Shown one piece after another: positions 59,245 to 60,953 of a stretch of DNA of 64,000 nt (the first letter of the stretch is position 1; every line of letters begins with the position of its first letter). The translations under genes and the position numbers were made by a program. The notes beneath the pieces were generated by a model. The model was given only the letters and a program-made list of their open reading frames with translations, had not been told where the DNA came from and ran no database searches. The stretch spans positions 124,001-188,000 of the forward strand of contig NZ_SOFY01000011.1 in NCBI RefSeq assembly GCF_004402595.1. The letters run 5' to 3'. This DNA is from Cryobacterium shii. GTDB taxonomy: Bacteria > Actinomycetota > Actinomycetes > Actinomycetales > Microbacteriaceae.

Positions 59245-59766
59245 TTACTGCCCCGAACGGCCCTGAGCCAGCGGGAACAGCGGGCGGCAGGTCGTGCACA
59301 CTTCACCGTCTGCACCGGTGGTGGCGTCGTGCTCGCTCTGCAGCCTTTCGCGCAGGGCCCACACCAGCAGCACCACGGCCGCGACCGCCACCACGGGGCG
59401 CACGAATCCCTCGAGCAGCGGCACCGCCGTGCGCAGATCGGTCGAGAGCGACAGTGCGATCAGGCCGAGCACGGGCCAGCGCAGATCGCACATGGTGGCC
59501 TCCGCGCCGATTGGCGCGTCGACGTAGCCGGCGACGACCAGGCCGACCAGCCCCGAGCCGACCACGGTGAGCAGATACCCCCACCACGCACCGGGGAAGA
59601 CAATCGCGCCATCGATCACCGAGAGGGTACCCGACACGATGGTCAGCCCGACGAGCGCGGCGGCGGCCACGCCGGCGGCAATCAGCCGGCGTGGCACCGA
59701 CCAGGATCGGAGTTCTCCGAACAGGACCGTGATGCTTGTGATGCCGGTGATTCCGGTGACGCTCAT
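59245..59766 (-). CDS. Membrane protein with C-terminal CxxC, second gene of CsoR-box operon
   Basis: A 173-residue protein with four hydrophobic helices (about 25-45, 50-80, 95-112, 120-140) and a short C-terminal cytoplasmic or exposed tail ending EVCTTCRPLFPLAQG, whose CxxC could bind a soft metal or act as a thiol pair. No family was recognised. The ATG overlaps the stop of the CPVCNK gene by four bases, so the two products probably work together. Confidence 0.72.
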   Translation of the reverse strand: MSVTGITGITSITVLFGELRSWSVPRRLIAAGVAAAALVGLTIVSGTLSVIDGAIVFPGAWWGYLLTVVGSGLVGLVVAGYVDAPIGAEATMCDLRWPVLGLIALSLSTDLRTAVPLLEGFVRPVVAVAAVVLLVWALRERLQSEHDATTGADGEVCTTCRPLFPLAQGRSGQ

Positions 59767-60254
59767 ACTGTGGCTGACTCCTTGTCGGGTGCTGCGGCGG
59801 TGAGCCGGCAGGAATTTTCGCGGGTGAGGCGCGCCCGGAGCGCCCAGCCGAGCAGCGCGATGGACGCGGCGGCGAGGTAGGGCTGGACCGGTTCGAAGAA
59901 CTGCAGGGCGCCGGTGGTGCCGAGCGCGAGGAGAACGATCTTGTTGCACACCGGGCAGCCGACCGCGAAGAAGGTGATCAGCCATCCGGCCAGGCCGAGG
60001 CGCCCCTCCGCCTTTCCGGGCTCCGCACCGTCCGGATAGGCGACGTAGGTGGCGGTGACGAGGCCGGCCAGGATCGCGCTGAGCAGGAGCACTGGCCAGG
60101 ACCACATTGTCGGGGGGACCTCGCGGGCGAAAAAGGGCGTGTCGATCAGGTCGGTCGGGATCGCGATCACGAGGACCGTCACGATCGCGCTCAACAGGGC
60201 CACGCCCCAACGCCGAGCGGGCCAGCGTCGCAGGGCGTTCCATCCGATTCGCAT
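59763..60254 (-). CDS. Membrane protein with CPVCNK motif under a CsoR-like operator
   Basis: A 163-residue protein with four hydrophobic helices (about 17-33, 50-70, 88-100 and 125-140). The third is broken by GCPVCNKIVLLALG, a cysteine pair inside the membrane as in metal-transfer and thiol-oxidoreductase membrane proteins. It was not matched to a named family. The ATG at 60252-60254 has TAGGGT six bases upstream, inside a palindrome resembling the copper-sensor CsoR site, which suggests induction by Cu(I) or a related thiol stress. Expected role: metal or thiol handling at the membrane (inference). Confidence 0.75.
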   Translation of the reverse strand: MRIGWNALRRWPARRWGVALLSAIVTVLVIAIPTDLIDTPFFAREVPPTMWSWPVLLLSAILAGLVTATYVAYPDGAEPGKAEGRLGLAGWLITFFAVGCPVCNKIVLLALGTTGALQFFEPVQPYLAAASIALLGWALRARLTRENSCRLTAAAPDKESATV

Positions 60255-60258
60255 TTTT

Positions 60259-60274
60259 ATACCCTACGGGGTAT
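60259..60274. promoter_or_regulatory. CsoR-type operator
   Basis: ATACCCTACGGGGTAT is a palindrome (6-bp arms ATACCC/GGGTAT type) that matches the GTATACCC-N-GGGTATAC style of CsoR/RcnR-family sites. It covers the TAGGGT -10 box (60261-60266) of the leftward membrane operon and also the TAG stop (60264-60266) of the universal stress gene. Confidence 0.72.
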
Positions 60275-60953
60275 TTTCCCGAGTGCCAAGCCCCGTCGCA
60301 TCCGTCGTCGTCGCCGCCGCAAGCCGGGCCGGAGGAATGATCAAACCCGGGATCGGCGACCTCTCGGCCACCCGATTCGTCACGCTGCCGAGGGGTGACT
60401 GCCGGCGCCGATGCGAGCCCAGGACGATCAGGTCGTAGTGCCCGGACGCCGCGCTGAGAGCGATCTGCTCGGCCGCCCCGCCGCTCGCCCGGGCGCTGTG
60501 CGGACGCAGGCCCATCGCCGAGAGGGTGCGCACGGCAGCGGCCTGGGCATCTCCGATGATCCGGTCCACCCGGGCGGCGGATGCGCCGAACGCCGTGTCG
60601 TAGTCAAGGGTCGTCAGCAGCGTGACGGAGCTAAGCCGCGCCCCAAACATGGTCGCGGCGGCCACGACGGCATGGGTGGCGGCGTCGGAGCCGTCGATGC
60701 CGGCCAGCATCCGAATCCGATCGGTGAGGAGCTGATCGGTGCGAGGCTGATCGGTGATTTCCACCGTCTTGAGAACCGGGATCTGCCGCTCCAGGTAGGC
60801 CCCCAGTCCGGCCAGGGCGATCGCGAACGGGCCTGCGGCGACGCCGAGTACGAGCCAGATTACGACGTCGTGGCCCCGCCGGATCATCACCAGCGCCACG
60901 GAGAGACCGACCAGGATCCAGCCGACCAGCACAATCATGATGACCTGCCACAT
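60264..60953 (-). CDS. Membrane-anchored universal stress protein
   Basis: A 229-residue protein. Two N-terminal helices (about 5-22 and 30-50) anchor a cytoplasmic Usp domain (about 80-215). MLAGIDGSDAATHAVVAAA opens the fold and LIVLGSHRRRQSPLGSVTNRV is the ATP-binding GxxGxxxGxxS/T-like loop, slightly altered (GSH-RRRQSPLGS). Family members bind ATP and respond to stress. Its stop lies in the CsoR-type box of the next operon, so read-through into the CPVCNK operon is possible. Confidence 0.87.
   Translation of the reverse strand: MWQVIMIVLVGWILVGLSVALVMIRRGHDVVIWLVLGVAAGPFAIALAGLGAYLERQIPVLKTVEITDQPRTDQLLTDRIRMLAGIDGSDAATHAVVAAATMFGARLSSVTLLTTLDYDTAFGASAARVDRIIGDAQAAAVRTLSAMGLRPHSARASGGAAEQIALSAASGHYDLIVLGSHRRRQSPLGSVTNRVAERSPIPGLIIPPARLAAATTTDATGLGTRENTP

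Follow-up and report, generated by a model that had tools for sequence, protein, structure and literature searches.

The window analysed here is a 64,000 bp stretch of the Cryobacterium shii genome, and it contains two small genes, P0001 and P0002, that code for predicted membrane proteins and are preceded by a short palindrome. The features of the locus are as follows.

60264..60953, minus strand: universal stress protein (USP) gene, upstream of P0001 on the same strand (Pfam Usp, E 3.1e-15)
60255..60289, minus strand: putative leaderless promoter, made up of TTGGCA (60284–60289), 17 nt, TAGGGT (60261–60266), 6 nt and ATG
60259..60274, minus strand: candidate operator of the CstR type, ATACCCTACGGGGTAT (TACC-N6-GGTA), so classed by its N6 spacing and by the company of such sites genome-wide
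60254..59763, minus strand: P0001 gene, 163 aa, four-segment membrane protein with CPVCNK (residues 100–105) and C149
59766..59245, minus strand: P0002 gene, 173 aa, a diverged tandem paralogue of P0001 without CPVCNK

The initial annotation had described a two-gene operon with a palindrome, and the positions of both are confirmed. The genes overlap as ATGA, and their translation is therefore probably coupled. The palindrome has perfect 6 bp arms (ATACCC/GGGTAT) around an imperfect centre, TACG, and its spacer reads TACC-CTACGG-GGTA, i.e. N6; on the coding (minus) strand the operator region reads ATACCCCGTAGGGTATAAAAATG. It is the sole match in the window at up to three mismatches, where shuffled sequences average 0.03, and the stop codon of the USP gene falls inside it. 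No Shine-Dalgarno sequence is seen before the P0001 start, and the P0001 mRNA would be leaderless. With TAGGGT at 6 nt from the ATG and TTGGCA a further 17 nt upstream, the proposal that the palindrome overlaps the −10 box is a fair reading, from sequence only, for a putative leaderless promoter. Among the 16 operator-bearing relatives outside Cryobacterium, a TANNNT motif lies 6–7 nt before an in-frame start in 13 and touches the operator in 10, in a count that accepts offsets of 5–8 and has no chance control.

Hydropathy predicts about four membrane segments in P0001, and an AlphaFold2 model places helices at residues 13–31, 52–68, 81–98 and 101–148 (mean pLDDT 83). In P0002 hydropathy also gives about four segments, the third weak, with an additional weak N-terminal window, and the four helical segments of its model are weakly supported (pLDDT 64); the models thus support the four helices ascribed to both products for P0001, and for P0002 only weakly. 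The description of paired cysteines, one pair within the membrane, is borne out: the CPVC of P0001 (100–103) lies inside the third hydrophobic stretch, with C149 after the last segment, and P0002 has one cysteine between segments 2 and 3 and a CTTC in its C-terminal tail, so that P0001 alone of the two has its cysteine pair in the membrane. Fourteen aligned P0002 copies keep GAxATxCDxRWP, with its single cysteine, and the C-terminal CxTCxPLFP. The two proteins are related to each other (hhalign Prob 97.8, E 9.3e-13), and a search of the genome with P0001 matched P0002 at E 8.6e-4. Among the loci examined, P0002-like genes are limited to Cryobacterium. Neither protein reaches the cut-off of any Pfam or NCBIfam family, in agreement with the statement that they fit no named copper exporter.

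Operator spacing and repressor class

We classed CsoR-family repressors by their ligand residues, C-nonH-C for the CstR type (persulfide) and C-H-C for copper CsoR. The genome has three such genes: a C-H-C gene adjoining copA (contig C89), a C-A-C gene of the CstR type (G000:C49:117-377) with an N6 site at C49:2058 before its operon, and a C-H-H gene. The csoR-copA region contains three N7 sites and zero N6 sites. The protein with C-H-H at its ligand positions is encoded at G000:C56:120880-121195, with an N7 site just upstream. Genome-wide, ATACCN6GGTAT occurs at 13 sites, against one for the reversed control, and seven of the 13 adjoin persulfide or thiol genes, of rhodanese, persulfide-dioxygenase-like, CoA-disulfide-reductase-like, TauE or thioredoxin type. 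The sites and their neighbours, with gene borders from a codon-scored gene finder made for this analysis, are listed here.

C42, one site: pyridine-nucleotide-disulfide reductase fused to rhodanese, TusA and DsrE domains
C49, one site: reductase-rhodanese gene with cstR
C52, two sites (189235 and 189502): rhodanese gene with a lipoprotein-like start
C71, two sites: thioredoxin-MFS opposite MBL-rhodanese (persulfide-dioxygenase-like), NicO and rhodanese
C91, one site: TauE-rhodanese-thioredoxin
C48 and C71 (106952), one site each: before a small cysteine-rich protein gene
C81, one site: by a sub-threshold DCC1-like gene
C89, two sites: by SHOCT-like, multicopper-oxidase and DUF302-like genes (the DUF302 label reflects resemblance to annotated plasmid genes, not a search)
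Window, the remaining site: operator before P0001

Several of these neighbours merit a separate description. The rhodanese lipoprotein-like gene (G000:C52:188846-189223; L103:4846-5223) lies 5 kb from the operon, just outside the window, and is immediately preceded by one N6 operator, with a second 267 bp beyond it. The two cysteine-rich proteins share the pattern MC..TC..C.K.TW.GCGQH and are encoded at L104:3752-3976 (C71) and L107:796-1026 (C48), each behind an N6 operator; the product of L104:3752-3976 matches no Pfam family. A gene of the NicO-type nickel-transport family (L104:7165-8229) also stands behind two N6 operators, with the persulfide-dioxygenase-like gene on one side and the rhodanese gene on the other.

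The relation between spacing and repressor class was examined in two sets of loci. The first comprises 72 entries from the genomes behind the P0001 relatives, with one site-bearing gene represented by an edge-cut copy without its site. Here TACC-N6-GGTA is found near 30 of the 44 CstR-type entries (43 genes, as one site-less gene was entered twice) and 1 of the 28 C-H-C entries, and TACC-N7-GGTA near none of the 44 and 19 of the 28; other spacings occur in at most one entry and the reversed pattern in at most three. The second set comprises 58 other loci, the best 29 besides its own for each of two queries (the genome's CstR and CsoR), a choice by score that favours close relatives of the queries. 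N6 sites are near 21/29 CstR-type versus 0/29 C-H-C loci, and N7 sites near 0/29 CstR-type versus 23/29 C-H-C loci; no protein in this set is 98% or more identical to any in the first. When the sets are pooled, N6 is present at 51 of 73 CstR-type and 1 of 57 C-H-C entries (locus L207), and N7 at 42 of 57 C-H-C and none of 73 CstR-type entries. The stretch searched has no N6 site at 14 of 44 and 8 of 29 CstR-type entries. A difference of one base pair in the spacer would thus mark off persulfide from copper repressor genes in Actinomycetes, with one exception in 130 entries.

Published operators give two cases of the same kind. In the excerpted reports, the copper CsoR of Streptomyces lividans binds ATATACCCCTNAGGGGTATAT, or TACX9GTA (PMC3902906), and the sulfane-sulfur sensor ScCsoR of S. 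coelicolor binds ATACCn6GGTAT, or TACX8GTA (PMC7533328). The S. lividans site has TAC/GTA half-sites with C and G tracts like those in the window, but one base further apart (PMC3902906, as excerpted). The excerpts of the S. coelicolor report also call the ScCsoR motif highly similar to the sites of the copper sensors Geobacillus CsoR and RicR, with which it was pooled in a motif search (PMC7533328). According to excerpts of two further accounts, a Thermus CstR-like protein binds a different site, TACNNTACNNNNGTANNGTA (PMC10318464), and the site of M. tuberculosis CsoR has a different layout (PMC3902906), so the rule is not universal. It is drawn from the two published cases together with our two locus sets; we found no published statement of it in the open-access literature searched, a scope that makes this weak evidence of absence.

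The operator is conserved in the close relatives of P0001. The best 18 loci matching P0001 (73–83% identity) are all from Cryobacterium, and TACC-N6-GGTA is present within 220 nt upstream in all 18, compared with 32 of 574 background windows from these operator-rich loci. Outside Cryobacterium it occurs within the same distance in 16 of 61 near relatives (one of 62 was dropped because its upstream sequence is missing) and in 17 of 1674 background windows, and the reversed pattern is found in neither group. These counts, covering 80 loci, use tblastn positions rather than gene calls; the gene finder missed P0001 in 10 of the 80 (L032, L042, L044, L047, L050, L054, L056, L065, L068 and L072) and in one locus of the phylum census described below (L146). 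In that census no N6 operator lies upstream of the P0001-family genes (0/30), so it belongs to a subset of the family; the conservation before homologues by which the initial annotation was to be judged therefore holds for Cryobacterium and some other near relatives but does not extend to the census. An N7 site is not found within 300 nt upstream of any of 119 P0001-family genes.

The regulator itself is often close by. In 16 of the 18 Cryobacterium loci P0001 and a CstR-type gene point away from each other with one or more N6 sites between them, and most of these 16 have PDO, rhodanese and TauE genes behind that repressor gene. The gene after P0001 is P0002-like in 15 of the 18, and a rhodanese lipoprotein gene comes next in 11; in the genome of the window the rhodanese lipoprotein gene is separated from P0001-P0002 but retains its own operators. 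In six loci (L020, L024, L025 and L027–L029) a further N6 operator lies downstream of this lipoprotein gene, at around +1400 relative to the P0001 match, and in five of them (L020, L024 and L027–L029) it is followed by DsbA and CcdA genes. We also read the CsoR-family genes in 34 genomes, 16 with an N6 operator before P0001 and 18 without. A CstR-type repressor is encoded in each of the 16 genomes with the operator, and seven of these yielded no other CsoR-family protein. The 18 operator-less genomes include 13 with the CstR type, two with C-H-C only, two with none by search, and one (G428) with a second match that was left unread. The presence of CstR alone thus discriminates little, and it is the single-regulator genomes that do so, although the absence of a C-H-C CsoR is weak evidence there, as five of the seven are MAGs. 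The proposal of a CsoR-like operator was right at the level of the CsoR family, and spacing and gene context together indicate that the operon is very probably controlled by a persulfide-type CstR and not by a copper CsoR.

The P0001 family and its possible likeness to MerT

The family of P0001 has no name and no Pfam model above cut-off, and its members are mainly actinobacterial. In an alignment of 44 of them CPVCNK (100–105), C149 and a number of W, F, G and P positions do not vary, an invariance that is biased because the 44 are the best of 188 relatives gathered in part by the pattern GCPVCNKI. A phylum-wide HMM census found a family match at E <= 0.001 in 36 of 396 genomes, and CPxCNK is present in 29 of the 30 gene-called members (V in 19, T in six, I in three and L in one; one lacks the motif). 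Five half-length matches (L173–L177) could not be gene-called and were left out of this set. These cover the N-terminal half only (about positions 5–93) in frames of 230–236 aa, and are possibly another branch without CPVCNK. Weaker relatives of P0001 are carried by haloarchaeal plasmids. The term 'CPVCNK' does not appear in the open-access literature searched.

Structural comparisons gave little information. Foldseek found nothing in the PDB at E <= 0.001, VIA-align 2 gave Z scores of at most 5.8, only against unrelated helical chains and therefore uninformative, and a family-profile sequence search of the PDB returned nothing at E <= 1.

Comparison of profiles suggests that the second half of P0001 is distantly MerT-like. 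Residues 78–142 align with the mercuric transporter MerT (one sequence used) by hhalign with Prob 85.7 and E 5.5e-6, and the likeness covers the stretch of MerT (PF02411) that bears its membrane CC pair; against CcdA, TauE, an MFS protein and NicO the Prob values are 0.1–0.4. Membership of P0001 in CcdA/DsbD was rejected with a Prob of 0.4 against one CcdA sequence. P0001 is also not an outright MerT, as it scores 15.6 bits against a Pfam gathering cut-off of 32.9, and it is the distant likeness that we retain. There are differences of architecture too: MerT has a vicinal Cys-Cys in its first membrane segment, P0001 has CPVC in its third, and P0001 has two N-terminal segments more. Sub-threshold Pfam matches to MerT occur in 10 of the 44 relatives (best E 0.0018), but matches to the unrelated Acyl_transf_3 are about as frequent and as strong (9 of 44, best E 0.00065), and we therefore lean on the hhalign result alone. 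A MerT search over 197 genomes gave two matches, neither above cut-off, one of them a P0001-family gene, and annotated MerT genes were among the weakest matches of a plasmid search (36% identity, E 0.6). No mer genes are seen near P0001. TauE/SafE (PF01925) matches neither P0001 nor P0002 up to E 1, and one of the 44 relatives at E 0.064.

Gene neighbourhoods and competing explanations

The family is found in several genomic settings. Many relatives of P0001 are flanked by DsbA and/or CcdA genes, often with BlaI and M56 genes, and some have CopA, a heavy-metal P-type ATPase, a multicopper oxidase or a CsoR-like regulator encoded in their vicinity. A BlaI gene, in most cases accompanied by M56 and often by DsbA and CcdA, is seen at L065, L068, L070, L075–L078, L082–L085, L087, L088, L090, L091 and L094, and also near relatives on plasmids L267, L273 and L274; such neighbourhoods may represent a second, non-CstR mode of regulation for the family. 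Nine actinobacterial plasmid stretches were compared. Seven have a thioredoxin-fold gene at a distance of one or two genes from P0001, and the other two do not; rhodanese, TauE, DsrE, MBL or DUF302 genes are present within five, and copper or heavy-metal genes within four as well as on a haloarchaeal plasmid. On a Streptomyces plasmid the order is regulator-P0001-thioredoxin domain-CcdA, opposite rhodanese-TauE-rhodanese-rhodanese, and the regulator is of the CstR type there and in one other plasmid stretch. One stretch that has copper or heavy-metal genes and no thioredoxin-fold gene nearby has a C-H-C regulator with an N7 site beside it. The copper-gene and BlaI-M56 neighbours imply that the chemistry of the family need not be of sulfur alone; given these mixed contexts, the family may have a role in thiol chemistry more broadly, with the CstR link marking a sulfur-dedicated branch.

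The initial annotation had left a choice between a copper and a persulfide response, and these can now be weighed. If the operon were a copper module, CsoR would read the operator and P0001-P0002 would use their cysteine pairs to transport or buffer Cu(I). CxxC motifs are capable of binding Cu(I), the neighbours of some relatives include CopA, a multicopper oxidase or a CsoR-like regulator, and one N6 site is near a C-H-C gene (L207). The likening of the N6 motif to copper CsoR and RicR sites in the excerpts of PMC7533328 further means that N6 may not exclude copper sensors everywhere. Nevertheless, that site is the single one among 57 C-H-C entries in both sets, N6 is lacking from the genome's csoR-copA region, where three N7 sites lie, N7 is absent upstream of all 119 family genes, and no C-H-C CsoR was found in seven operator-bearing genomes (five of them MAGs, where absence is weak evidence), so that a copper module is very unlikely. 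We reject the copper reading of the window operator on its N6 spacing and the genome-wide company of sites. It is the persulfide half of the proposal that stands, favoured by the N6 spacing, the other 12 sites, the divergent CstR gene in 16 of 18 Cryobacterium loci and the seven genomes with CstR only. That the palindrome is an accident of the 3′ end of the upstream gene, whose stop codon it overlaps, and that the operon is constitutive, is harder still to credit, with 0.03 matches expected in the window, 13 sites versus one in the genome and an operator in all 18 Cryobacterium loci.

A different question is what a CstR-regulated P0001 would handle. It could be an electron relay that carries no sulfur, exchanging electrons or disulfides with CcdA on one side and a DsbA- or TlpA-like protein outside the cytoplasm on the other, and so keeping envelope thiols or persulfides reduced. 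The CPxC motif is of the thioredoxin-like redox type, many relatives have DsbA and/or CcdA genes on their flanks, and a thioredoxin-fold gene is one or two genes away in most of the plasmid stretches (7/9). SoxV and SoxW in thiosulfate oxidation offer a precedent for such a relay, going by the title of a reference in PMC10451225. However, no DsbA or CcdA gene adjoins the operon in the window, the CPVC half of P0001 is nearer to MerT, a carrier, than to CcdA, and P0002 is without a CPVC motif, and we consider a pure electron relay rather unlikely. Within the CstR regulon P0001 and P0002 likely handle sulfane sulfur or thiol electrons at the membrane; that P0001 carries sulfur as such is a possibility to which we give somewhat less than an even chance.

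The explanation that we favour as a whole, a CstR-operated operon with a MerT-like hand-over of sulfane sulfur or electrons by P0001-P0002, appears reasonably probable. CsoR-family sulfur-sensing repressors lose their affinity for DNA once their cysteines react or cross-link, according to excerpts of two reports (PMC7533328, PMC5480029). Rising persulfides or polysulfides would react with the two cysteines of CstR, which would then leave the −10 region and allow a leaderless P0001-P0002 transcript, with rhodaneses, persulfide dioxygenase, CoA-disulfide reductase, thioredoxins and TauE co-induced. The in-membrane CPVC of P0001 would, in the fashion of MerT, accept sulfane sulfur (or thiol electrons), which would pass across the membrane to C149 and the CTTC tail of P0002, although transfer could run in either direction, and cytosolic rhodanese and dioxygenase would complete the handling after P0002. 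On the extracytoplasmic side the rhodanese lipoprotein would serve as partner, a place that the DsbA and CcdA pair would take in other relatives.

Relation to known systems

Among the closest known systems is the ScCsoR circuit of S. coelicolor (PMC7533328). In the excerpts of that report it shares with the window genome the operator ATACCn6GGTAT, a sensing repressor with two cysteines, and PDO, rhodanese and TauE in the regulon; none of its four genes named there is of the P0001-P0002 type, and its sites are matched here by sites spread over several contigs. The S. aureus CstR is likewise a CsoR-family repressor that senses per- and polysulfides, and it acts over tauE, cstA, cstB and sqr, with no CPVCNK membrane protein among the cst operon genes named in the excerpts (PMC5480029). 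YedE1E2, a membrane importer in which conserved cysteines are reported as essential, moves zero-valent sulfur inward (PMC10812762, as excerpted). It is a functional analogue of P0001 at most, likened by description and not by sequence, and P0001 has no Pfam family above cut-off. The DsbA and CcdA (DsbD-type) thiol relay is a frequent neighbour of P0001 relatives, but P0001 itself is not CcdA-like.

The CstR regulon itself is thus of a known kind, and it is the P0001 membrane family that is unnamed. More tentatively still than for sulfur carriage by P0001, we suggest that the CPVCNK proteins are new and widespread MerT-like carriers or relays for sulfane sulfur, a sulfur counterpart of MerP-MerT-MerA, and that TACX8GTA and TACX9GTA separate the persulfide and copper branches in Actinomycetes. 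Persulfide regulons in the literature covered consist of enzymes together with a sulfite or thiosulfate exporter, with no membrane step for sulfane sulfur or for reducing electrons, and the unnamed family of P0001, placed under an operator of the CstR type, directly offers a candidate for that step. The spacing rule, for its part, would let sequence alone distinguish copper from persulfide regulons in Actinomycetes.
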